Assembly: GCA_012798065.1 (NCBI GenBank)
Contig: JAAZNW010000007.1
Span: 1-35,398, forward strand
DNA: 35,398 nucleotides
Source: Chloroflexota bacterium
GTDB taxonomy: Bacteria > Chloroflexota > Anaerolineae > Anaerolineales > Anaerolineaceae
Direction: 5' to 3'
In this document: positions 12,765-31,859 of the stretch, piece by piece
Numbering within the stretch: the first letter of the stretch is position 1
Layout of the letters: each line of letters opens with the position of its first letter
Position numbers and translations under genes: made by a program
Notes under the pieces: model-generated
The model's database searches: none
The model's input: only the letters and a program-made list of their open reading frames with translations
What the model was told of the DNA's origin: nothing

Positions 12765-13832
12765 ATGGAATTGAAAATTGGTCAGCATTTTATCGGGTTG
12801 CAGCACCCTACCTACTTCATCGCAGACATTTCAGCCAACCACGATGGCAGCCTGGAGCGAGCCAAGATGCTCATCAGGCTCGCCAAAGAAGCTGGCGCTG
12901 ATGCTGCCAAGTTCCAGAACTTCCGCGCCCCAAAAATCGTGTCAGATTACGGCTTTAAAGCCATGCAGGGGCAGGTCTCTCATCAGGCTACCTGGAAGAA
13001 ATCCGTTTTCGAAGTCTACTCAGACGCCTCCATCCCTTTTGACTGGACTCCCATCCTCAAAGAGGAGTGCGATAAGTTAAATATTGATTACTTCTCCTCT
13101 CCCTATGATTTTGAAGCGGTTGATTATCTCGACCCGTTCGTGCCGGCGCACAAAATTGGTTCCGGCGACATTGACTGGCTGGAAATGCTGGAACACATTG
13201 CCCTCAAAGGAAAACCTGTCATTCTTTCCAGCGGTGCCGCCACCATCGGCGAGGTGCAGCAAGCGGTACACACCATCTTACCGCTTAACCAGCAGTTGGT
13301 CTTGCTGCAATGCAATACCAATTACACTGCCAGCCCGGTGAATTTTGACCATATACATTTGCGCGTATTACAAACCTATCAGACGCTCTTCCCGGAAATT
13401 CCTGTCGGGCTGTCAGACCACACGCACGGTCACGCTACTGTCCTCGGCGCAGTGGCGCTGGGGGCGAGGGTGATCGAAAAACATTTCACTGATGACACCA
13501 GCCGTGTAGGGCCTGATCACCCCTTCTCGATGACTCCCGTTACCTGGCGTGAGATGGTGGATCGCACACGCGAACTGGAACGCGCGCTTGGCTCAGCTGA
13601 TAAATCGGTCAGCGGTAACGAGGTAGACACTACCATTGTGCAGCGCCGCTGCCTGCGCGCCTCTCGTGATATTCGCTCCGGTGAGGTTTTCACCCGCGAG
13701 ATGATCGATGTGCTGCGCCCGGCTACTCCCGGCGCCATCCGCCCTGACCAGGTTTTTCAGGTGGTCGGAACCCGCGCACTCAAAGACATTCCCATGGGAA
13801 AAGAGTTGCGCTGGACGGATTTGGGAGAGTAA
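12765..13832 (+). CDS. NeuB-family synthase with C-terminal SAF domain (SpsE/PseI-like)
   Basis: FIADISANHDGSLERAKMLIRLAKEAGADAAKFQ; VGLSDHTHGHATVLGAVALGARVIEKHFT; C-terminal RRCLRASRDIRSGEVFTREMIDVLRP. Confidence 0.9.
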   Translation: MELKIGQHFIGLQHPTYFIADISANHDGSLERAKMLIRLAKEAGADAAKFQNFRAPKIVSDYGFKAMQGQVSHQATWKKSVFEVYSDASIPFDWTPILKEECDKLNIDYFSSPYDFEAVDYLDPFVPAHKIGSGDIDWLEMLEHIALKGKPVILSSGAATIGEVQQAVHTILPLNQQLVLLQCNTNYTASPVNFDHIHLRVLQTYQTLFPEIPVGLSDHTHGHATVLGAVALGARVIEKHFTDDTSRVGPDHPFSMTPVTWREMVDRTRELERALGSADKSVSGNEVDTTIVQRRCLRASRDIRSGEVFTREMIDVLRPATPGAIRPDQVFQVVGTRALKDIPMGKELRWTDLGE

Positions 13833-13833
13833 T

Positions 13834-14961
13834 TTGAAAGTTGTTTATTTCACCCGCGATTATTCACCTCATGACGAACGCTTTCTCACCGCGCTCGCGC
13901 AAACGCAACACGAGGTGTATTTCCTGCGGTTGTCGCCCTCAAGCGAAGTCCATTTACCACCCGGAATACGCGAAGTGAAATGGGTCGGCCCCCTCGCCGG
14001 TGAAATAATTTCTGATGACAGGCGCGCGGAAGATCTGAATCAGCTTCTTTCCAGGCTGCAGCCTGACGTGCTGCACGCCGGTCCACTGCACGGGCCGGCA
14101 TATATCGCCGGTTTAAGTGGCTTTACCCCGCTGGTGAGCATGTCCTGGGGTTCAGACATCCTGCATGATGGAGAAGTTGACGCCCTCGCCCGGGCAAAAA
14201 TCAACCTTTCACTGCATCGTTCCACGGTTTTCCTGGGCGACTGTCAGGCGGTGGTAGAAAAAGCGATCAACGCTTTCGCGTTTCCCGCGGAGCGGGTATT
14301 CCGGTTCCCGTGGGGGGTAGACCTGGCGCACTTTTCACCCTCAACAACCAGCCCGCTGCGCGCATCATTAGGCTGGCAGCAGCAATTCGTCTTCCTCAGC
14401 AACCGCTCCTTCGAAGAGATATATGGTGTAGACGTGGTCATGCGCGCCTTCATCCAGGCGCAATCTCGCGCCCCAAATATCCGCCTGTTATTGTATGGGA
14501 AGGGCAGCCTTCAACAAGAAATCATGCGCATGGCTGAAAACGCGGGAGTGATGCACAAGATCCATTTCGCTGCCTTTGCCGGGCATGAAGATCTGCCAGC
14601 CAGTTACCACGCCGCGGATGTATTCCTCAGCGCGTCTCATTGTGACGGTTCCTCTGTTTCACTGATGGAAGCGTTGGCCTGCGGCAAACCCGCGCTGGTT
14701 TCCAACATCCCCAGTAACCTCGAATGGGTGCACCACGGCGAAAATGGCTGGCTTTTTCAAGACGGTGATACTACAGGGCTGGCAGACGCCATGGTAGCGG
14801 TCAGCCGCAAGCCGAATCTTGAAAAGTTGGGTCAAAAATCCCGGGCGCTGGCCGAAGAAAAAGCTGACTGGTCGTGTAATTTCGCCGTGTTATTGCAGGC
14901 TTACCAAAAAGCCGTGGAATGGCGTACGCCCGCCCTGGAGATTACGGAGCGGGTGAAATGA
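13834..14961 (+). CDS. Glycosyltransferase (GT4/GT-B type), TTG start
   Basis: LKVVYFTRDYSPHDERF; ADVFLSASHCDGSSVSLMEALACGKPALVSNIPSNLEWV. Confidence 0.85.
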   Translation: MKVVYFTRDYSPHDERFLTALAQTQHEVYFLRLSPSSEVHLPPGIREVKWVGPLAGEIISDDRRAEDLNQLLSRLQPDVLHAGPLHGPAYIAGLSGFTPLVSMSWGSDILHDGEVDALARAKINLSLHRSTVFLGDCQAVVEKAINAFAFPAERVFRFPWGVDLAHFSPSTTSPLRASLGWQQQFVFLSNRSFEEIYGVDVVMRAFIQAQSRAPNIRLLLYGKGSLQQEIMRMAENAGVMHKIHFAAFAGHEDLPASYHAADVFLSASHCDGSSVSLMEALACGKPALVSNIPSNLEWVHHGENGWLFQDGDTTGLADAMVAVSRKPNLEKLGQKSRALAEEKADWSCNFAVLLQAYQKAVEWRTPALEITERVK

Positions 14962-15713
14962 AAGTGGTGGCCATCATCCAGGCGCGCATGAGTTCCACCC
15001 GCCTGCCCGGCAAAGTTTTAAAGCTGGCTTCAGGTCGCACAATGCTGGACCGCATGCTTGAACGCGTTAAAAAAGCGCGAACGATCAGCGAGGTGGTAAC
15101 AGCCACCACAACTGATCCTTCCGATGATAGTATTGCTCGCGCTTGTAAAAAACTGGGGGTGAGTGTGTTCCGCGGCAGCCTGCAGGATGTGCTCGATCGG
15201 TTTTACCAGGCATCGCGCATGCATCAAGCAGATATCATCGTGCGCCTCACCGGGGATTGCCCGTTGATCGACCCCGCGCTCATCGATGACGTGGTGAACG
15301 CTCTCACCCGGAAAAAGGTCGATTTTGCCTGCAACCGTCTTCCGCCGCCCTTTTCACGCACCTACCCCATCGGACTGGATGTGGAAGCCTGTACTTTCAA
15401 CGCGCTGGAGCAGGCCTGGTATGGAGCGAAAGAGAAGTTCGAACGCGAGCATGTGCTGCCTTACCTTTACGCTGTGCCTGGCAGGTTTTCCGTGCTTCAA
15501 TTGAATCACACCACAGACCTCGGTCACTTGCGCTGGACATTAGATACGCCCGAAGACCTGGTACTGCTGAGGCGTATCTACCGGTATTTTCAAGGCCGCA
15601 ATGACTTTTCATGGTTGCAGGTCTTACAATTACAGCAGCAAAAACCCAGCCTGTTCGCCATCAACGCGCAGGTGCGCCACAAAACCTACCTGGAAAATGA
15701 ATCCCCGAGATGA
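14958..15713 (+). CDS. Cytidylyltransferase family protein (SpsF-like)
   Basis: VVAIIQARMSSTRLPGKVLK; RLTGDCPLIDP; ATGA overlap. Confidence 0.88.
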   Translation: MKVVAIIQARMSSTRLPGKVLKLASGRTMLDRMLERVKKARTISEVVTATTTDPSDDSIARACKKLGVSVFRGSLQDVLDRFYQASRMHQADIIVRLTGDCPLIDPALIDDVVNALTRKKVDFACNRLPPPFSRTYPIGLDVEACTFNALEQAWYGAKEKFEREHVLPYLYAVPGRFSVLQLNHTTDLGHLRWTLDTPEDLVLLRRIYRYFQGRNDFSWLQVLQLQQQKPSLFAINAQVRHKTYLENESPR

Positions 15714-20625: not shown

Positions 20626-21447
20626 ATGACCAGTATTTTTGAAAAATTTTCATTGAAAGGCAGGGTTGCGCTGGTGACTGGCGGCGCCGGCCTTTTAGGA
20701 AAAGAGTTCTGCCTTACCCTCGCCCAGGCTGGCGCGCAGGTGTACGTCGCAGACCTCAATCTGAGCGCGGCTGAAAGCGCGGCGCAAACCATCACCGCCC
20801 AAGGTCATTCTGCCTGCAGCATCAGGCTGGACGTGACCAACCCGGATTCAGTGCAGTCTGTGGTCGATGAAATCGTTTCCCGTTCCGGCAGTATTGATGT
20901 GCTGGTGAACAGCGCCGCAATGGACCCCAAGTTCGACCCTGGTCACGCGCAAACCAACAGCAACGCTTTTGAAACATATCCTCTGGGGTCATGGCAAGAT
21001 GCGCTCAATGTCAACCTCACCGGGCCATTCCTGGTTTCTCAGGCAGTTTGCCGCCAAATGGTGCGGCAGGGTAAAGGTTCTATCATCCATATTTGTTCAA
21101 CATACGGGTTGGGCGGGCCTGATCAGCGTATCTATGAAAAACCCGGACAGTCAAAAGTGTTCAAGCCAGTGTATTACACCGTCACAAAAGCCGGCATCCT
21201 GGGTCTTACAAAATACATGGCTACCTATTACGCGGGAAGTGAAATCCGCGTGAACGCGCTCACTCCAGGGGGGGTCTTTGCCGGGCATGATGATGTTTTC
21301 GTGAAGAACTACTCGGCGCGCACGGTCATTGGCAGAATGGCCCACAAAGACGAGATGAATGGCGCGCTGCTCTTTTTAGCCTCTGACGCCTCCTCCTATA
21401 TGACGGGTGGGAACGTGGTGGTAGATGGAGGGTGGACAGCTTGGTAA
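20626..21447 (+). CDS. SDR family oxidoreductase
   Basis: VALVTGGAGLLGKEF; DVLVNSAA; YYTVTKAGILGLTKYMA; C-terminal MTGGNVVVDGGWTAW. Confidence 0.92.
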   Translation: MTSIFEKFSLKGRVALVTGGAGLLGKEFCLTLAQAGAQVYVADLNLSAAESAAQTITAQGHSACSIRLDVTNPDSVQSVVDEIVSRSGSIDVLVNSAAMDPKFDPGHAQTNSNAFETYPLGSWQDALNVNLTGPFLVSQAVCRQMVRQGKGSIIHICSTYGLGGPDQRIYEKPGQSKVFKPVYYTVTKAGILGLTKYMATYYAGSEIRVNALTPGGVFAGHDDVFVKNYSARTVIGRMAHKDEMNGALLFLASDASSYMTGGNVVVDGGWTAW

Positions 21448-22697
21448 AAAAACCGGAGGTGTTAGCGCTAATTCCTGCGCGCGGCGGCTCAAAAGGCATC
21501 CCGCGCAAGAACATCAAACTGTTCGCTGGTTTTCCCCTTATCAGCTACAGCATTGCTGCGGGCCGGCAGGCGCAGAGCGTCACACGGGTTATTGTGTCTA
21601 CCGACGATGAAGAAATTGCCGCTGAAGCGCGACGTTGGGGAGCCGAAACTCCCTTTTTGCGCCCGCCTGAACTGGCGCAAGACCAAACCACTGATCTGCC
21701 TGTCTTTCAGCACGCGCTGCGCTGGCTCCGTGAAAACGAAGGCTATACTCCTGACCTGGTCATCCAGTTACGTCCCACCTCACCCATCCGTCCGCGCCTT
21801 TGTGTGGATGAGGCCGTGGCGCTTTTAAGAAATCATCCAGACGCGGATAGTCTGCGCGGAGTGGTGCCCATCGGGCAAAACCCCTACAAAATGTGGCGGT
21901 TGCAGGGTAAAGAGGAACCAATGATCCCCTTGCTGAAACTGGATGGTATCGCTGAACCATTCAACGCGCCCCGCCAATCGCTGCCGCCTACTTACTGGCA
22001 AACCGGGCATATTGATGTGATCCGCCCTCGGGTCATCCTTGAGGGCAATTCGATGAGCGGCAGAAAAATTCTGCCCTACCTCATTGACCCTCGGTACACG
22101 GTGGATATTGATACACCCTTTGACTGGCTGCGTTACGAATGGCTGGTGCGAAACGCTGACCTGGATATGGTTGACCCGGCCAGCAAGCGGCGCAAACTCC
22201 CCGCGAAGATCTCGCTGGTAGCGATGGATTTTGACGGTGTGCTCACCGATAACCTGGTCTATGTGGATCAGGATGGCAGCGAGCGCGTCGCTTCTTCACG
22301 CGGTGATAGTATGGGCATCCGCCTGGTGCGCGAAGCCCTGCCGATAAATTTTGTGGTCATCTCCACTGAGACCAACCCGGTGGTCAGCGCGCGCTGCCGC
22401 AAACTTAACCTGGAAGTCTACCAGGGAGTTAATGACAAACCCGCGTTACTCAAACAGCTGCTGCAAGAGCGCCAGGTTCCTGCTGGGGAGGTCGTCTTCA
22501 TCGGTAATGATGTAAATGATGTCGGTTGCTTTGACCTCGCTGCTTACGCGGTCGCCCCGGCCGACGCCGAACCAGAAGTTCGACGCCGCGCCGACCTTGT
22601 GCTCACCCGTAAAGGCGGGAAAGGCGCGGTGCGGGAGTTTTGCGACCTTCTTTTACAGAATGCTGGGAAAATTTTGCCTACACAGGAGAAAAAATGA
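21432..22697 (+). CDS. Bifunctional: acylneuraminate cytidylyltransferase (NeuA-like) fused to KdsC-like HAD phosphatase
   Basis: LALIPARGGSKGIPRKNIKLFAGFPLI (NeuA) plus C-terminal VAMDFDGVLTDNLVYVDQDGSE ... FIGNDVNDVGCFDLAAYAVAPADA (HAD). Confidence 0.9.
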   Translation: MDSLVKKPEVLALIPARGGSKGIPRKNIKLFAGFPLISYSIAAGRQAQSVTRVIVSTDDEEIAAEARRWGAETPFLRPPELAQDQTTDLPVFQHALRWLRENEGYTPDLVIQLRPTSPIRPRLCVDEAVALLRNHPDADSLRGVVPIGQNPYKMWRLQGKEEPMIPLLKLDGIAEPFNAPRQSLPPTYWQTGHIDVIRPRVILEGNSMSGRKILPYLIDPRYTVDIDTPFDWLRYEWLVRNADLDMVDPASKRRKLPAKISLVAMDFDGVLTDNLVYVDQDGSERVASSRGDSMGIRLVREALPINFVVISTETNPVVSARCRKLNLEVYQGVNDKPALLKQLLQERQVPAGEVVFIGNDVNDVGCFDLAAYAVAPADAEPEVRRRADLVLTRKGGKGAVREFCDLLLQNAGKILPTQEKK

Positions 22698-23569
22698 CAC
22701 GAGAAGTCAAGATTGGCAATAAATGGGTCGGCGACGGCCACCCCGTCTACATCGTGGCTGAAGTTGGCATCAATCATAACGGTGATATTGAAATCGCCAA
22801 AGAACTTATCCGCGCGGCCAAGCACGCCGGCGTGGACGCTGTAAAATTCCAAAAACGCACCCCTGAACTATGCGTTCCACCTGAACAACGCGGACAGATG
22901 CGTGAAACCCCCTGGGGCTACATCTCTTACCTGGATTACCGCTACAAAGTGGAATTCAACGAGGCTGATTATGATGAAATCAACCTCTACGCGCGTGAAA
23001 TTGGCATCGAATGGTTTGCGTCCGTTTGGGATATCCCTTCCGTTGACTTCCTGGAAAAGTACGAGCCCATCTGTTACAAAATACCTTCCGCGTCGCTGAC
23101 CGACGTGGAACTGCTGCTGCACCTCAGGAAGACCGGTCGTCCGCTCATTCTCTCCACGGGTATGTCTACCCAGCAACAGATCAAAGACGCGGTTAAGCGG
23201 ATAGGCGAAGAAAACCTGGTCATCACTCACGCCACCAGCGCTTACCCTTGCGACCCGTATGAATTAAACCTGCGGATGATCCAAACGCTGCGCGGTATCT
23301 TCAATTGCCCTATCGGCTACTCTGGTCACGAAGTCGGACTGGTGACCTCTGCAGTGGCGGTGGGTTTGGGGGCCTGTATGGTTGAGCGCCACATCACGCT
23401 TGACCGTGCGCTGTGGGGATCTGACCAGGCGGCATCAGTGGAGCCGGGCGGTTTTGAAAAACTGGTCAAGTACATCCGTGTCACCGAAGCAGCCATAGGC
23501 GACGGCGTGAAAAAGGTGTACGAAAGTGAGATGCCCTCGCTGCGCAAGTTAAGGCGGATCCAGGATTGA
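22694..23569 (+). CDS. NeuB-family synthase, no SAF domain
   Basis: YIVAEVGINHNGDIEIAKELIRAAKHAGVDAVKFQKR; IGYSGHEVGLVTSAVAVGLGACMVERHITLDRALWGSDQAASVEP; ATGA overlap. Confidence 0.9.
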   Translation: MTREVKIGNKWVGDGHPVYIVAEVGINHNGDIEIAKELIRAAKHAGVDAVKFQKRTPELCVPPEQRGQMRETPWGYISYLDYRYKVEFNEADYDEINLYAREIGIEWFASVWDIPSVDFLEKYEPICYKIPSASLTDVELLLHLRKTGRPLILSTGMSTQQQIKDAVKRIGEENLVITHATSAYPCDPYELNLRMIQTLRGIFNCPIGYSGHEVGLVTSAVAVGLGACMVERHITLDRALWGSDQAASVEPGGFEKLVKYIRVTEAAIGDGVKKVYESEMPSLRKLRRIQD

Positions 23570-25176
23570 ACCAAGCTTTTTTGCGGGTTAGAAACGGTAT
23601 CAGGCAGCGCTGGGTGCATAAAAAAGCCAACCAGCGCTGGCGGGCCTTAGCCGCAACCATCACACTGCAATCGCCACCGCCCAACGACCCGCGACCAGTG
23701 ATATTTTTTAACGCTTCCACCCGGCTGCAGGCGATGAGCCAAAATGCCGCTTATGCGCTGCTCACCGCGCAGGCGTTGCGCCTGCAGGGTGTTCCTGTCA
23801 TCCAGTTCGTTTGCGGCGGGGCGTTGCAGCGTTGTGTGTTGGGCAGCCAGCAGGATAATTTCAACGTGCCGCCGCCATGCCAGGCCTGCACCCGCCAGAG
23901 CCAGGCAGTTTTCCAGGAGTTGGATACCCGTTGGATGGAAACGCGTGAGCACCCCTTGCTTGCAAAAGAGCTCGAAAACCTGTCATTCAATGCGTATGAG
24001 ACCTTCACCTATCAAGGAATTCCGCTGGGTGCCTGGGCGGTCAATTCACTGCGTTGGATGATGCGCCGCCACCACCTGCAAGAGGATGAAACGACGCGCG
24101 CTTTTTTCCGCTCTTTTATCCTTTCCAGTTGGAATGTATTCACTCAGTTCTCTGAATTACTGGATGAAACCCAACCCCGCGCGGTGGTGCTGTTCAATGG
24201 TATGTTTTTTCCAGAAGCCGCGGCGCGCCACGCCTGCCTGGAACGGGGTGTGCTCGTGATCACCCACGAGGTCGGGCTCAGGCCCTTTACGGCTTTCTTC
24301 ACCACCGGCGAAGCCACGGCTTACCCGATGACCATCGACTCCGCCTTTCAGCTCGATGATCACATGGAGAAGAAACTCGATGGGTATCTCTCTACACGTT
24401 TTCGCGGAGAGTTCACCATGGCGGGCATCCGGTTCTGGCCTGAAATGAAAGCCCTCGAAGCTGATTTAATTGAGAAAATTAACCACTATTCCAAACTCGT
24501 AGCAGTATTCACCAATGTGATTTTCGATACCAGCCAGGTGCACGCCAATACCCTTTTTGAGCATATGTTCACCTGGCTTGAGCATGTAAAAACAACTGCT
24601 CCTTCCCATCCTGAGGTATTGTTCGTCATTCGTGCTCATCCTGACGAGTGCCGCCAGGGGAAAGAAAGCCGTGAAAGCGTTGCCGCGTGGTTCTCTTCAT
24701 CTGAAATTTCCCACCTCGACAATGTGGTGTTCATTGGGGCGGATGAGTACCTCAATTCATACGAACTGATTCGCCGCGCGCATCTGGTGATGGTTTACAA
24801 CTCAACCATCGGGCTGGAAGCCGCGCTGCTGGGAAAACCAGTCCTCGCCGGGGGTAAAGCGCGCTTTACGCAGCTTGAAACCGCGTTCTACCCGCAGTCT
24901 GCGCAGGAATACACCGTGATGCTTGAGCGGCTTCTGGCAGCGCCGAGCATTGACACACCGCCCGAGTTCGCCCGTAATGCCCGACGCTTTTTGTATTACC
25001 AGCTTTACGCCACTTCTCTTGACTTCAGTGACTACCTCGAGGAAGACGGCGTGTGGAAAGGTTACGTTCAACTCCGCGAGTTCTCACCTGACCTGCTTAA
25101 GCCAGACAATTCTCTTACAATGAAGGTGCTGTTAAATGGCATCCTTGAGAATGGAGATTTTACTCTGCCGCTATGA
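23566..25176 (+). CDS. Capsule-polysaccharide-biosynthesis-type (KpsS/KpsC-like) protein, TTG start
   Basis: FVIRAHPDECRQGKE; HLVMVYNSTIGLEAALLGKPVLAGGKARFTQLETAFYP; CVLG...PPPCQAC cysteines. Confidence 0.65.
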   Translation: MNQAFLRVRNGIRQRWVHKKANQRWRALAATITLQSPPPNDPRPVIFFNASTRLQAMSQNAAYALLTAQALRLQGVPVIQFVCGGALQRCVLGSQQDNFNVPPPCQACTRQSQAVFQELDTRWMETREHPLLAKELENLSFNAYETFTYQGIPLGAWAVNSLRWMMRRHHLQEDETTRAFFRSFILSSWNVFTQFSELLDETQPRAVVLFNGMFFPEAAARHACLERGVLVITHEVGLRPFTAFFTTGEATAYPMTIDSAFQLDDHMEKKLDGYLSTRFRGEFTMAGIRFWPEMKALEADLIEKINHYSKLVAVFTNVIFDTSQVHANTLFEHMFTWLEHVKTTAPSHPEVLFVIRAHPDECRQGKESRESVAAWFSSSEISHLDNVVFIGADEYLNSYELIRRAHLVMVYNSTIGLEAALLGKPVLAGGKARFTQLETAFYPQSAQEYTVMLERLLAAPSIDTPPEFARNARRFLYYQLYATSLDFSDYLEEDGVWKGYVQLREFSPDLLKPDNSLTMKVLLNGILENGDFTLPL

Positions 25177-26117
25177 CCACTCCAGTTTGTTCGATTATCA
25201 TACGCGCCTATAACGAAGAAAAACATATCGGCCGCCTGTTGCGGGGAATCCAGGAGCAGGACCTTCATGATGTGCAGGTGATCCTGGTGGATTCAGGCTC
25301 GACGGACGGTACCCGCGACGTTGCTCGCGCCTATCCGGTAGAGATCGTAGCGATTGACCCGCGTGAATTTACTTTCGGTCGTTCACTCAACCTGGGCATC
25401 GCCGCCGCCAGCGCGCCCCTCATCGTGATGGCCAGCGCCCACGTCTATCCAGTCTACCCCGATTGGCTGACCAAAATGCTGCAGCCATTCCAGCAAACCG
25501 AAGTTGGCTTGGTTTATGGCAAGCAACGCGGCACAGATACAACGGCTTTCTCTGAGCATCAAATCTTCAACCATTGGTACCCTGATGTTTCAGTCAGGAA
25601 ACAATCGCATCCTTTCTGCAATAATGCCAACGCGGCTATTCGAAAAGAGTTATGGCAACAGCACCCGTATGATGAAACCCTCCCAGGGTTGGAAGACCTG
25701 GAGTGGGGAAAATGGGCACAGGAGCAGGGTTATACCATCTCTTACGTCGCCGAGGCTGAAATCATCCATGTGCACAACGAGTCGCTCGACGGTATTTACA
25801 ATCGTTATAAACGCGAAGCGATGGCGTTTAAACGTATCTACCCGCACGAAACTTTCACGCTGCGCGATTTGAACCGACTTTTTTTACAAAATGTAATCAG
25901 CGACTGGCGCGAAGCCCGGAGGCAAAAGGTCTTCGCTCACCATTTTTTCCATATCATCGGATTCCGCTGGCGGCAGTTCTACGGAACCTACCAGGGGTAC
26001 CGCCAGTCTGGCCCGCTCACCTGGCAGTTGAAGAGGGCGTTTTACTACCCCCGAGATTTCCGCCAGGCATCCGGGCAAACCAGCCGCCGAGATATCGAGC
26101 CAATTAAGTATAATTAG
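25173..26117 (+). CDS. GT2-family glycosyltransferase
   Basis: CSIIIRAYNEEKHIGRLLRGI; VILVDSGSTDGTRDVA; NNANAAIRKELW; ATGA overlap. Confidence 0.92.
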   Translation: MTTPVCSIIIRAYNEEKHIGRLLRGIQEQDLHDVQVILVDSGSTDGTRDVARAYPVEIVAIDPREFTFGRSLNLGIAAASAPLIVMASAHVYPVYPDWLTKMLQPFQQTEVGLVYGKQRGTDTTAFSEHQIFNHWYPDVSVRKQSHPFCNNANAAIRKELWQQHPYDETLPGLEDLEWGKWAQEQGYTISYVAEAEIIHVHNESLDGIYNRYKREAMAFKRIYPHETFTLRDLNRLFLQNVISDWREARRQKVFAHHFFHIIGFRWRQFYGTYQGYRQSGPLTWQLKRAFYYPRDFRQASGQTSRRDIEPIKYN

Positions 26118-26140
26118 GCAGGTTGATAGAAGGTACTTGC

Positions 26141-26146
26141 AGGAGG
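26141..26146 (+). promoter_or_regulatory. Strong Shine-Dalgarno for the MoaD-like gene
   Basis: AGGAGG 5 nt before ATG at 26152. Confidence 0.75.
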
Positions 26147-26151
26147 ATAAA

Positions 26152-26439
26152 ATGGCCCATGTAACTATTGAGTTTACCGGTCTTTCAAAGTCAATTACAG
26201 GGGTAAACGAGGTAAATTTGCCGATCAACCCCACAGATACCTACCGCGACGTGGTACGCCAGCTGGGAACGCTTTATCCCGCATTGGTAGGGATACTCAT
26301 CGCTGAAGATGGCGAGACTTTCCTGAGTTCCAACATGTTCATCATCGATGGCGATTACGCCAATCCCGCTATGGTGATGGAGAACTCTCCCAGGGACGGT
26401 GAACACATTCACCTCATGTCTGTCATCACCGGTGGCTGA
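26152..26439 (+). CDS. MoaD/ThiS-like (beta-grasp, ubiquitin-like) small protein with C-terminal GG
   Basis: 95 aa, MAHVTIEFTGLSKSITGVNEVNLPIN...SPRDGEHIHLMSVITGG; diglycine is the exact C-terminus. Confidence 0.75.
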   Translation: MAHVTIEFTGLSKSITGVNEVNLPINPTDTYRDVVRQLGTLYPALVGILIAEDGETFLSSNMFIIDGDYANPAMVMENSPRDGEHIHLMSVITGG

Positions 26440-27145
26440 AAGAACCAAGAAAGTCGAGGTTTGGGTGCCTGAGAAACTGCAACACCCCAAGATCTCCGCT
26501 CTGGTGCCGATGCGGCATCACTCTCAACGTGTGCCTGGGAAAAACTACCGCCCTTTGAACGGCATTCCTCTCTACCAGCACATCCTTACCACCTTAACGC
26601 AGGTGCCAGAAGTGGATGAAATTGTCGTGGATACTGACAGCGACATTATTCTGCACGGGATCCAGTCAAACTTCCCTGCTGTCAAGGTGATCAATCGCCC
26701 GCCAGAACTACGAGCGGATGATATTTCGATGAACACCATCCTGTTGCACGATATCAGCCAGTCACCAGCCGACCTCTACCTGCAAACGCATTCCACCAAC
26801 CCGCTGCTCAAAGCCTCCACAATCTCGCGGGCGATCAACAAGCTCTTACAGGTCTACCCGGAACACGACTCGTTGTTTTCAGTAACCCGCCTGCAAACCC
26901 GGTTGTACGACCATCTAGGGAAGGCGATTAATCACGACCCCAAAGTGCTCATCCAAACACAAGATTTACCGCCAGTTTACGAGGAAAATTCCTGTATCTA
27001 TCTGTTTACCGCTGCCACCCTGCGTAAGAACGGCACACGTATCGGAGAGACCCCTCTACTGTTTGAGACAGATCCAGAAGAATCCTGGGATATCGACGAA
27101 GAGGTTGATTTTAAATTAGTCGAAATGATACTGAAAGCGCGCTAA
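26432..27145 (+). CDS. Divergent NeuA-like cytidylyltransferase, GTG start
   Basis: ISALVPMRHHSQRVPGKNYRPLNGIPLYQHIL; DLYLQTHSTNPLL; GTG at 26432 overlaps the GG-stop of the MoaD-like gene. Confidence 0.78.
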   Translation: MAERTKKVEVWVPEKLQHPKISALVPMRHHSQRVPGKNYRPLNGIPLYQHILTTLTQVPEVDEIVVDTDSDIILHGIQSNFPAVKVINRPPELRADDISMNTILLHDISQSPADLYLQTHSTNPLLKASTISRAINKLLQVYPEHDSLFSVTRLQTRLYDHLGKAINHDPKVLIQTQDLPPVYEENSCIYLFTAATLRKNGTRIGETPLLFETDPEESWDIDEEVDFKLVEMILKAR

Positions 27146-27148
27146 CGA

Positions 27149-29227
27149 ATGAAACGCTTTTCCTCGTTTTCAGTGTTGTTGCAGCTGGGGATCTTCCTCC
27201 TGGGGGTAAGCGGTAGCATTTACGTGGCTTTTACTCCCGCAAACAGCATGATGAACTGGTACAGTAATGATGATGCCTTTTATTACTATAAAGTTGCGCA
27301 AAATGTGCTCAGCGGGCATGGTTTCAGTTTTGACGGTATCAACCTTACCAACGGGTTTCACCCGTTGTGGATGGTCATTTGCCTGGGCGTTTTCTGGCTC
27401 TCCAGATTCCATCTGCTACTGCCGCTAAGGGTATTAATCGTCATCAGCGGGGTTCTCAACGGGCTCACCGGCGTTGTGTTGTTGCGCTTGCTTCAAAAGT
27501 TTTTACCGCTTGTCGCTGCCATATTAGGCGCATGCGTTTGGATTCTCCTCCCTTCGATTTACAATAATTACACTGCCCACGGCCTTGAATCAGCGTTGAG
27601 CGCTTTCTTCGTTGCTGTGTTGTTGCTAAAAAGCGCTGACTTGCTGACCGGTCCCGCAGAAAAACGCGCCGGAAAATTGATCATACTGGGTATCATTGCC
27701 GCGCTCACCATCCTCAGCCGCCTGGACACGCTTTTCGTGGTCGCCATGGTGGGGTTTTTTGTGGTTTTTAAGATTACCAGGATGAACCGCCTGATGGTAT
27801 TTGACCTGGTGGCGGTGTTCATCGCTTCCGTTCTAGCGTGGATTATACGTTTTAGTACAACACCATTAGTACTGAACAACTACTCTCTCTACCCGCAAAT
27901 GGTTTTATCCCTGATGCTCACTCCCACGGCTGTTTTCTTTGCCGGATTATATAATCCAAAGGTTAAATATTCGAAGGTTCAGCTCTTCTCGCGCCTGGCA
28001 GCCGCCGCGGCCGGCCTTGCCGCTGCCTTATACCTGGCGCTTTTGCTGTTGCAAAAAGCGGGTATGAACCTGCTGGTCTCCCGTTCTTTAATCCTTCTCT
28101 CCGTCTCTCTCGCCTTTATTTTGTTCCTGTTTGTGCGCTTTTTTTACCGACCTTCCAGCCAGGTGCTCAGTGTGTCTGCCTGGCAGCAAGTAAAAAATTG
28201 GATCCAGCAGGGACTGCCCCATCACCTCCGTGACGGAGCGCTCTTCTCCTTCCCCATTGTGCTGCTGGTCTGCGGTTACATGTTAACCAATAAACTGGTA
28301 TTTGGTACCTTTACACCGGTGAGTGGCCAGGTCAAGACCTGGTGGGGAACGCTGGAAAACACCGTCTACCGTCAGAACACGACCCTGGTCGGATTGATGG
28401 GTTTGGCACCAGGCAGAGGGAAAAGCCCATGGTCGCTGCTGACCTCGATCGTTGCGGATATTTCGATTTTCATCAGGAACCTGTTCGTAAAAGATACGGA
28501 AGACCTGCCGGTCATCCTGTTTCTTGTTTTCCTTTTCATGCTGTTCATTTTGCTGATCTTTTTGCTTTCCCGCAAGGATGGTCTGCTGGCCAGACGCTCC
28601 TTCGCCCTTCTGATTCCCGCGTTGGCAGGCGGCTGTCTTTTGCACATTGCTTATTATGCCGCGCGCAATTACGGGCATACGCGCAGCTGGTACTGGGTGC
28701 CTGAGACGATGCTCCTCGTGCTGTTGGGAGCCGTGGTGAGCTCCAGGATGTTTGAAAAAACCAGGCAGTGGACACGAACACCCGTGGCTGAAAACCTGCT
28801 GCTGCTGGTAATGGTTGGCTTTGTCTTTTTCTTACACGCCCGATATATCGCCAGGCTCTGCCCGCCTTCGGTTTCTCCGGAGCACCAGGCAGACTACCTG
28901 GCAGAGACCCGTGAATTAGAATCCTATACCCGCGAAAACTCCTTGATTGGTATGACAGGTGGTGGAGCAACCGCGTATTTCATTCAAAATCGCACCATCA
29001 TCAATCTGGATGGCTTGATTAACAGTGCCGAATACTTCAGCACATTAAAAACCGGAGCCACCAACCGCTTTCTAAATAACCTGCATCTGGATTATGTTTT
29101 CGGTAATTCGTACATGCTACTCAAAACAGATCCTTACCAGCAAATTTTTACCGGGCGTATAAGGGAAATCGGCAACATTCACAGCGGGTCGCACTTCACG
29201 TTATATGATTACATCGGCGACCAGTGA
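27149..29227 (+). CDS. Large polytopic membrane protein, GT-C/GT39-like candidate glycosyltransferase
   Basis: 692 aa, many TM segments; early loop MMNWYSNDDAFYYYKVAQNVLSGHGFSFDGINLTNGFHPLW. Confidence 0.7.
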   Translation: MKRFSSFSVLLQLGIFLLGVSGSIYVAFTPANSMMNWYSNDDAFYYYKVAQNVLSGHGFSFDGINLTNGFHPLWMVICLGVFWLSRFHLLLPLRVLIVISGVLNGLTGVVLLRLLQKFLPLVAAILGACVWILLPSIYNNYTAHGLESALSAFFVAVLLLKSADLLTGPAEKRAGKLIILGIIAALTILSRLDTLFVVAMVGFFVVFKITRMNRLMVFDLVAVFIASVLAWIIRFSTTPLVLNNYSLYPQMVLSLMLTPTAVFFAGLYNPKVKYSKVQLFSRLAAAAAGLAAALYLALLLLQKAGMNLLVSRSLILLSVSLAFILFLFVRFFYRPSSQVLSVSAWQQVKNWIQQGLPHHLRDGALFSFPIVLLVCGYMLTNKLVFGTFTPVSGQVKTWWGTLENTVYRQNTTLVGLMGLAPGRGKSPWSLLTSIVADISIFIRNLFVKDTEDLPVILFLVFLFMLFILLIFLLSRKDGLLARRSFALLIPALAGGCLLHIAYYAARNYGHTRSWYWVPETMLLVLLGAVVSSRMFEKTRQWTRTPVAENLLLLVMVGFVFFLHARYIARLCPPSVSPEHQADYLAETRELESYTRENSLIGMTGGGATAYFIQNRTIINLDGLINSAEYFSTLKTGATNRFLNNLHLDYVFGNSYMLLKTDPYQQIFTGRIREIGNIHSGSHFTLYDYIGDQ

Positions 29228-29298: not shown

Positions 29299-30270
29299 AT
29301 GCCAGTCCTCTTATTATCTGCCCCTTATATGCTTCCTTTCGTCAATCGCTTTAAACCGGTTTTTGATCATTACCAGCTGGAACTGCTCCTGGCCCAGGTG
29401 AATGAGCGCCTCGGCGAAGAAGCCCTGCTGTCTCTCGCCGGTCAGTTTGACGGAATCATTTGTGGAGATGACCGTTTTACTCCACGGGTGCTGGAAGCCT
29501 GTTCACCCCGGCTAAAAGTAATTTCCAAATGGGGTACCGGTACTGATTCGATTGACCGAGCCGCTTGCGAGCGCCTGGGTATCCAGCTAAAGAACACGCC
29601 AAACGCGTTCACAATTCCTGTAGCAGACAGCGTGTTGGGGTACATCCTGGCTTTCGCCCGCCGCCAACCCTGGATGGACCGGGCGATGAAAAGCGGGAAA
29701 TGGCAGAAGATACCTGGTCGCGCTTTATCAGAAACGACCCTGGGGGTGGTTGGTGTGGGCAATATTGGCAAGGCGGTACTCAAACGCGCCAGCGCTTTCG
29801 GCATGCGCTTGCTGGGAAACGACATCATCCCCATCCCTGCTGACTTTCTGCAAGAATATCATGTTGAGAGTGTGTCCCTGCCTGAACTGGTCTCTCAAGC
29901 TGATTTTATCAGTTTGAACTGCGACCTTAATCCCACCTCGCGTCACCTCATCCACAAGGATATTATCAGGCTGATGAAGCCTGACGCCGTTCTGATCAAC
30001 ACCGCCAGGGGACCGGTCGTTAACGAAAAAGACCTGATTGAAGCCCTGCAGCAAAAAAGAATTGCTGGCGCCGGACTGGATGTGTTTGAAGAAGAACCCC
30101 TTCCCGCCGATTCCGCGTTGCTACATATGGAGAACGTCCTGCTAGCCCCGCATAATTCTAATTCCAGCCCCAGAGCCTGGGAAAACGTCCACTGGAACAG
30201 TATTCGAAATTTACTCATCGGTCTTGCCATCAACACAGAAGACCTGGACGAGTGGAAATCGAAAGTATAA
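29299..30270 (+). CDS. D-isomer-specific 2-hydroxyacid dehydrogenase (phosphoglycerate-dehydrogenase-like)
   Basis: TLGVVGVGNIGKAVLKRA; INTARGPVVNEKDLIEAL; GLDVFEEEPLP; LLAPHNSNSSPRA (Arg/Glu/His catalytic positions present). Confidence 0.9.
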   Translation: MPVLLLSAPYMLPFVNRFKPVFDHYQLELLLAQVNERLGEEALLSLAGQFDGIICGDDRFTPRVLEACSPRLKVISKWGTGTDSIDRAACERLGIQLKNTPNAFTIPVADSVLGYILAFARRQPWMDRAMKSGKWQKIPGRALSETTLGVVGVGNIGKAVLKRASAFGMRLLGNDIIPIPADFLQEYHVESVSLPELVSQADFISLNCDLNPTSRHLIHKDIIRLMKPDAVLINTARGPVVNEKDLIEALQQKRIAGAGLDVFEEEPLPADSALLHMENVLLAPHNSNSSPRAWENVHWNSIRNLLIGLAINTEDLDEWKSKV

Positions 30271-30284
30271 AAGGTGTACCAGAA

Positions 30285-31049
30285 ATGAAAGAAAACAAGC
30301 GTGTTGTGCTGATCACTGGCAGCGCCGGCGGCATCGGTAAAGCCTGTGTGGAGTTGTTCGCCGCGAACGGCTGGCAGGTTGTTGGCATAGACGTCAATGC
30401 TTTTGGCCCGGGGTTTCCTGCAGACGGTTTATACATTCAAGCAGATATCTCTCAACCAGATGAGTTCCCCGTCCTTTTCGAGAAGGTCAAGGCTTTCTCC
30501 GCCAGGTTGCACGCCCTTGTGAATAACGCCGCTGTCCAAGTATCAAAGCCGTTAATTGAAACAACCGTCGAAGAATGGGACAAGGTGATTGCCACTAATT
30601 TGCGCCCGGTCTTCCTTTCAGCGCGTGAATTTCACCCGCTCTTAATCAACGCGGGCAGCAGCGCCATTGTCAATATGTCATCCGTGCACGCCATTCAAAC
30701 CTCTGCCAGTATCTCGGCTTATGCTGCCAGCAAAGGAGGGATGCTGGCGCTGACGCGGGCGATGGCCATCGAATTCGCCAAAGACAATATCCGTGTCAAC
30801 GCCGTGCTGCCTGGGGCGGTGGATACCCCCATGCTACGCAGTGGCCTTGATCGCGGTCATGTGACGGGACCTTCTCTTAACGAACGCCTTGACAACCTTG
30901 CTCGCAAGACCGTCAATGGGCGGATTGGTCAGCCAGCCGAGATTGCCCGGGCGGTTTATTTTTTGGCCGATGGCACCCAATCCTCGTTCATGACGGGTCA
31001 AGCACTGGTGGTAGATGGCGGTGCCACTGCCCGTTTGAGCACGGAGTAA
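30285..31049 (+). CDS. SDR family oxidoreductase
   Basis: VVLITGSAGGIGKACVELFAANGW; LVNNAAVQ; AYAASKGGMLALTRAMAIEFA; MTGQALVVDGGA. Confidence 0.92.
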   Translation: MKENKRVVLITGSAGGIGKACVELFAANGWQVVGIDVNAFGPGFPADGLYIQADISQPDEFPVLFEKVKAFSARLHALVNNAAVQVSKPLIETTVEEWDKVIATNLRPVFLSAREFHPLLINAGSSAIVNMSSVHAIQTSASISAYAASKGGMLALTRAMAIEFAKDNIRVNAVLPGAVDTPMLRSGLDRGHVTGPSLNERLDNLARKTVNGRIGQPAEIARAVYFLADGTQSSFMTGQALVVDGGATARLSTE

Positions 31050-31055
31050 AAACCC

Positions 31056-31859
31056 TTGCGCGCAAAAATCAAACAACTCATCCCCGTTCCCCTGGTCGAC
31101 CTATTCCGCTCAGCCCGTGACAACCTTTCGCTGGCATTCGCATACCCTAACGCCAGGCTTCACCCCTGGCGGGTTGATTCGATCCAAAAACTGGAAGCCT
31201 TGCGGGATTGTCACAAAGGCGAGCGCTGCGTCATCATCGGCAATGGACCGAGTTTGAAGCAGACTGACCTGCAGAAACTACGCGGCACCTTTTCTATTGG
31301 GATGAACCGTTTTTATATGGCTTTCAACGACCTGGGTTTCACCACCTCCATCCTGCTCACGGTCAATAACCTGGTCATCGAACAATGCGCTGATGAGCTG
31401 CGCGGGCTGCCAATCCCCATTTTCGTATCATGGCGTGGGCGGCGCTATATCCACCCCGCGCCTAACCTGCATTACCTGTACACCTCTTACATCAAGCCTT
31501 CTTTCAACGGCGATGCCACCGGGCGGTTGTGGGAAGGCGCAACGGTGACCTTTGTAGCCATGCAGTTGGCCTATTTCATGGGCTTCAAGCAGGTGATTCT
31601 CATTGGCGTAGACCACAATTTCACCAGCACAGGCAAGCCCAATACAACCGTGGTATCCACAGGTGCTGATCCCAATCACTTTCACCCTGGCTATTTCGGT
31701 AAAGGGTTTCGCTGGCAGTTGCCTGACCTTGAGACATCAGAAATCGCCTACCGCATGGCAAAAAGCGCTTACGAGAAAAATGGACGAGAGATACTCGATG
31801 CAACCATCGGCGGCAAGCTCACCGTATTTCCCAAGGTCAACTTCGATACGATCTGGTAA
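31056..31859 (+). CDS. DUF115 / Maf-like protein, candidate NulO glycosyltransferase
   Basis: GERCVIIGNGPSLKQTDLQKLRGTFSIGMNRFYMA ... GATVTFVAMQLAYFMGFKQVILIGVDHNF; TTG start. Confidence 0.7.
   Translation: MRAKIKQLIPVPLVDLFRSARDNLSLAFAYPNARLHPWRVDSIQKLEALRDCHKGERCVIIGNGPSLKQTDLQKLRGTFSIGMNRFYMAFNDLGFTTSILLTVNNLVIEQCADELRGLPIPIFVSWRGRRYIHPAPNLHYLYTSYIKPSFNGDATGRLWEGATVTFVAMQLAYFMGFKQVILIGVDHNFTSTGKPNTTVVSTGADPNHFHPGYFGKGFRWQLPDLETSEIAYRMAKSAYEKNGREILDATIGGKLTVFPKVNFDTIW

Follow-up and report, generated by a model that had tools for sequence, protein, structure and literature searches.

What is a protein of the MoaD/ThiS sulfur-carrier type doing inside a nonulosonate operon? The question is raised by a stretch of 35,398 nucleotides (hereafter, the window) from the draft genome of a Chloroflexota bacterium of the family Anaerolineaceae. 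Here a small gene encoding a protein with a C-terminal Gly-Gly lies between a glycosyltransferase gene and a cytidylyltransferase gene. A preliminary description, made from the window alone, took the protein for a dedicated sulfur or conjugation step in the synthesis of an activated surface sugar. The genes concerned are the following.

20626–21447, + strand: SDR oxidoreductase (c13), by profile match
21432–22697, + strand: PseF-like cytidylyltransferase fused to a KdsC-like HAD phosphatase (c12), by profile match
22640–23569, + strand: NeuB-family nonulosonate synthase without SAF domain (c6), by profile match
23566–25176, + strand: Capsule_synth-like protein (PF05159; c11), by profile match and neighbourhood
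25173–26117, + strand: GT2 glycosyltransferase (c10), by profile match and neighbourhood
26141–26146, + strand: AGGAGG ribosome-binding site of the carrier gene, by sequence
26152–26439, + strand: 95-aa beta-grasp sulfur-carrier-like protein (MoaD/ThiS/SAMP1 type) with C-terminal ITGG, by open reading frame, profiles and model
26465–27145, + strand: cytidylyltransferase (PF02348, PseF-like; c9), by profile match, start by homologues
27149–29227, + strand: 692-aa membrane protein, GT-C-like by eye (c22), by inspection and neighbourhood
29299–30270, + strand: 2-hydroxyacid dehydrogenase (c8), by profile match
30252–31049, + strand: SDR oxidoreductase (c21), by profile match
31056–31859, + strand: MptE-like/Maf-type protein (PF01973; c20), by profile match

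The carrier gene reads from ATG 26152 to TGA 26437–26439 and encodes 95 amino acids (MAHVTIEF...LMSVITGG), with AGGAGG five bases 5′ of the ATG; the reading frame ending in MSVITGG and the Shine–Dalgarno sequence are both present as first described. An alternative TTG start at 26137 would give a product of 100 amino acids. A TATAAT 5′ of the gene was considered as an internal promoter and rejected, because it consists of codons of the glycosyltransferase tail (the 3′ end of c10 encodes PIxYN), similar tails occur in genomes lacking the carrier, and there is no −35 match.

The gene 3′ of the carrier indeed encodes a cytidylyltransferase (PF02348, E 2e-29), whereas the reported overlap of the carrier's tail with its GTG start is doubtful. 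The c9 frame has GTG codons at 26399, 26432 and 26465, and homologues start with ATG near the position equivalent to 26465 (L102 has MPEPNPPRIVALV versus MPEKLQHPKISALV in the window), pointing to GTG 26465 as the most likely start rather than 26432 or 26399. Carrier and c9 do not overlap in the 11 related genomes checked (L112 ends before c9), and translational coupling between them was discarded, the overlap not being conserved. Across the order, 228 of 301 genomes have c9, nearly always in single copy; judged by this distribution, it is a core gene of the order.

Carrier orthologues occur in 27 of the 301 genomes, the window genome counted and two of the matches being marginal. The named relatives are Anaerolineaceae MAGs; the contig scan used a seven-sequence genus alignment. 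GG stands immediately before the stop codon in each of the 25 aligned orthologues, a feature on whose conservation the preliminary description had made its reading depend, and E7, P43, I50, N61, G94 and G95 are invariant. Close pairs of orthologues give a dN/dS of about 0.05–0.10 (pairs including the window carrier are saturated at synonymous sites), and purifying selection in the operon-linked clade is strong. Given this spread, the GG ends, the invariant residues and the low dN/dS, the gene is more than a chance reading frame.

The Pfam ThiS/MoaD model PF02597 scores the window protein at 19.9 bits (E 0.0011) against a cut-off of 22.5, and the orthologues from genomes G267, G271 and G207 at 30.3, 28 and 25.5 bits. 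A 25-member family profile run against the PDB matches MoaD best (2m19, 2.8e-6) and, with weaker E-values, Urm1, MoaD2, the carrier chain of 4n6e (chain B, a weak match at 0.03) and SAMP1. The AlphaFold model (pLDDT 88.5, pTM 0.80) has low confidence in the tail alone (last block 55); Foldseek returns SAMP1 first (E 8.6e-6, TM 0.80–0.85), and also MoaD, Urm1 and CysO. On the SAMP1 family model NF041918 the carrier stays far under the cut-off (17.7 versus 60 bits). By model and profile, the protein is a ubiquitin-fold (beta-grasp) member of the ThiS/MoaD superfamily; the preliminary description had supposed this fold and would have given up its reading without it.

The proposed pairing of carrier and cytidylyltransferase proved to be conserved in one clade of 12 Anaerolineaceae genomes, namely the window genome, six of its genus and five further named MAGs. 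In all 12 the carrier directly follows c10 and precedes c9 (one contig ends before c9), within the order c14–c13–c12 (PseF-HAD)–c6 (NeuB)–c11–c10–carrier–c9–(c22)–c8–c21–c20, with small variations. These 12 carriers form one side of a tree branch (92/80; 90% of bootstrap trees), and the clade stands among carriers linked to Mo hydroxylases. A conserved carrier in a glycan-operon context is thus real, and our literature searches found no MoaD/ThiS carrier reported from a locus for sialic acid or capsule.

The operon also exists without the carrier. In G213 (same genus as the window), G263 and G185, c10 is followed after ~20–50 nt by c9, and in G064 and G127 c9 comes directly after c11. The membrane protein gene c22 is missing at the corresponding place in G213; as an obligatory co-inserted partner of the carrier it was dismissed, because in G267 c8 comes immediately after carrier and c9.

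Two genes at the left edge of the window bear on the origin of the carrier.

6–620, + strand: c28 family protein, 5′ part beyond the contig end, by homology
680–1564, − strand: AllH-family protein (PF11392), by profile match and homology

Positions 6–1564 represent the edge of an AllH–c28–cyclase (ureide/decarboxylase) cluster, the carrier's setting in other genera. There the orthologue lies beside AllF/AllG/AllH, c28, a cyclase and the FAD, 2Fe-2S and Mo subunits of a Mo hydroxylase (CoxMSL). The window c28 is 61% identical to the gene directly adjoining the carrier in G275 and G064, and homologues of the window AllH flank the carrier in G216 and G277. An aldehyde oxidoreductase-type (AOR) gene lies directly beside the orthologue in G249, G295, G261, G279 and G116, and the AOR-linked carriers form a separate tree branch (100/99). 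Pieces of the AllH–c28–cyclase cluster are found 16–26 kb from the carrier in the window genome (G000), G240, G273 and G267, and CoxS/CoxL 23–26 kb from it in G273. In G207 the genes flanking the AllH–c28 cluster of G240 are still present, AllH and c28 are absent, and the carrier is kept.

On this homology, the window c28 is a remnant of the carrier's other neighbourhood. Because the operon is widespread without the carrier, empty sites exist, and relatives and remnants belong to a Mo/ureide cluster, the carrier gene has probably reached the operon by translocation, and its presence is best read as one insertion event in an operon that was already old. The objection raised at the outset, that this might be a stray molybdopterin gene in an unconserved neighbourhood, is partly borne out as to origin by the Mo-linked relatives and the remnants; as to retention it is not.

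In this superfamily, a MoeB/ThiF-type E1 adenylates the C terminus of the carrier, which then becomes a thiocarboxylate. The main open reading frames of the window include no moa or thi gene, E1 or JAB protease, as had been observed, and its operon locus contains no ThiG/BexX-like or other known sulfur-inserting enzyme. The E1 to be sought elsewhere in the genome was found: G000 encodes a single one, MoeB-type, with both CxxC pairs, on contig C95 (278.6 bits versus the MoeB subfamily cut-off of 266; nearest solved relative MoeB 1jw9). It also scores well on the model of SAMP-activating E1, yet under the cut-off. A confident E1 is present in 24 of the 25 carrier genomes. On C95 (L033 4762–9153) the E1 gene adjoins a PIG-L (MshB-like) deacetylase gene and is divergent from a DHH-CBS-PolyA_pol gene, an arrangement seen in six genomes; it lies near an exopolysaccharide cluster, and similar genes stand beside the E1 in G207 and G271.

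The acceptors known from other systems were searched for in these draft genomes (G000 is 91% complete with 4.6% contamination, and all compared genomes are drafts). MoaE (PF02391) has no match in G000, G190, G207 and G271, and MoaC none in G190, G207 and G271. G000 possesses MoaC and two MoeA genes on a 4.5-kb contig that could be contamination, the assembly being a draft MAG. In G190 a single MoeA lies next to a MoaB/MogA-like gene, and G271 gave no MoeA match. ThiG gives weak partial matches alone, within a ~300-aa frame that in G000 is PdxS-like and lies beside a PdxT-like gene. No match was obtained for JAB/JAMM proteases in seven of eight genus members (G000 included), for TtuA (TIGR00269) in any of the eight, or for AOR in G000, G190 and G271; in these last three, the RelA TGS domain is the only other ThiS/MoaD-type protein. 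Incomplete assemblies could explain some of these absences. The moa cluster of G240 contains a MoaD-like gene distinct from the carrier, and several other relatives show, besides their carrier, ThiS and MoaE matches in one open frame (a MoaD–MoaE fusion).

Some further observations concern the distribution of these genes. MoaC occurs without a MoaE match in G000, G249, G279, G295 and G073; G263 has MoaC, and the MoaE scan did not include this genome. MoeA lies ~1 kb from RelA among G064, G277, G216, G174, G013 and G275. AOR-family proteins are present in G027 and G053, which have no MoaC or MoeA match, and AOR was set aside as a weak sign of Mo/W use for this reason.

We hypothesize that Gly95 of the carrier is adenylated by the single MoeB-type E1 of C95 and converted to a C-terminal thiocarboxylate that delivers sulfur. 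The gene would descend from carriers of Mo-hydroxylase/ureide-catabolism clusters, and a single move, made in the ancestor of the Anaerolineaceae clade, would have placed it between two neighbouring genes of the old nonulosonate-glycan operon. It would be co-expressed with the operon and serve a sulfur-transfer pathway whose acceptor we place outside it, because the operon lacks a known sulfur-inserting enzyme. By analogy with its family, sulfur carriage on Gly95 is the most likely function of the protein; we infer the direction of the move, adenylation, thiocarboxylate formation, co-transcription and the external acceptor. The proposal as a whole is assigned a probability of about 0.5. Against it counts the retention of the carrier in an identical slot in 12 genomes. 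Among those that keep it are G207 (no AllH/c28 by the operon; MoaC and MoaE not found) and, lacking MoaC, MoaE and AOR matches, G190 and G271. With a role in Moco synthesis only, the carrier should have been lost from G207, G190 and G271, these absences being read from drafts and the Mo hydroxylases themselves lying outside the search in G000, G190 and G271.

The carrier may instead be a dedicated sulfur donor of the nonulosonate/surface-glycan pathway, passing its thiocarboxylate to an activated sugar or an operon enzyme and yielding a thio-sugar or similar product. This is an unlikely reading, although the identical slot, strand and conserved order in 12/12 clade members, the purifying selection, and the retention without a Mo-linked neighbourhood in G207 favour it. 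So do the E1 near exopolysaccharide genes and the carrier's standing as sole ThiS/MoaD-type protein (RelA TGS aside) in G000, G190 and G271, where MoaE, ThiG, TtuA, JAB and AOR were not found. The lack of a sulfur-inserting enzyme speaks against it, as does the presence of the adjoining core operon genes in carrier-less genomes, and we know of no chemistry that would use the carrier in a nonulosonate operon. The CysO and BexX 2-thiosugar system of Amycolatopsis (4n6e, 3dwg) shares the carrier fold, but its ThiG/BexX-like enzyme and JAB have no counterpart found in the window genome. We regard as similarly doubtful the broader idea that a carrier recruited from a Mo-enzyme setting supplies surface-glycan synthesis, via the only E1, with a dedicated step of sulfur transfer or carrier conjugation. 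The original claim of such a step stands as to the MoaD/ThiS-type GG carrier, the genomic E1, the pair in one clade and the missing MoaE, ThiG, TtuA and JAB; its dedication to the sugar is weakened by an operon that is carrier-less in most of the order, by the missing sulfur-inserting enzyme and by the Mo/AOR-linked relatives.

A ubiquitin-like modifier of the SAMP/Urm1 type, whose E1-activated GG would be joined to target lysines, perhaps under stress, is improbable. SAMP1 (Haloferax/Methanosarcina) is the closest fold and the E1 scores well on the SAMP-activating model, but both family cut-offs are missed, no JAB/JAMM protease was matched in seven of eight genus members, and the operon position would be incidental. 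The carriers of T. kodakarensis do combine sulfur carriage with protein modification (PMC11323500). We consider it just as improbable that the protein is a plain MoaD, making molybdopterin with MoaE for the Mo enzymes of the genome from an accidental place. Its likeness to MoaD (2m19, 1vjk, 5mpo) in fold, C-terminal GG and MoeB-type E1, its relatives beside Mo hydroxylases, the CoxS/CoxL of G273 and the MoaC/MoeA contig of the window MAG agree with this reading; the position outside a moa cluster, the lack of MoaE matches in G000, G190, G207 and G271 and of MoaC matches in the last three, and the separate MoaD-like gene or MoaD–MoaE fusions of relatives disagree.

Returning to the sulfur carrier with an external acceptor, two more systems offer comparison. 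TtuB/TtuA tRNA 2-thiolation follows the same logic of an E1-dependent GG carrier, but TtuA is missing from the eight genus members searched. Carriers beside AOR are among the neighbourhoods tabulated by Iyer et al. 2006, whose text does not mention glycosyltransferases or sugars (PMC1779556); the carrier's own orthologue group includes such pairs, while the window clade lies beside glycan genes.

For characterised prokaryotic ThiS/MoaD proteins the acceptor is usually known (MoaE, ThiG, TtuA, or CysM with JAB). Here at least three draft genomes keep one carrier and one E1 with none of the searched acceptors found, save MoaC/MoeA in one. The glycan-operon carrier is therefore a clean test case for the role of an orphan carrier/E1 pair, and for a possible entry of sulfur or a ubiquitin-like protein into the synthesis of surface sugars. 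A true sugar role would amount to a previously undescribed pathway to a thio-sugar or a carrier-modified glycan; a gene left over from Moco supply would illustrate how readily neighbourhood alone can mislead.

As to the sugars themselves, the locus encodes two NeuB-type synthases and three cytidylyltransferases (12765–13832, 14919–15713, 21432–23569 and 26465–27145). It probably makes two different activated nonulosonates, and the PF01973 protein c20 (31056–31859) is possibly a nonulosonate-transferring glycosyltransferase.
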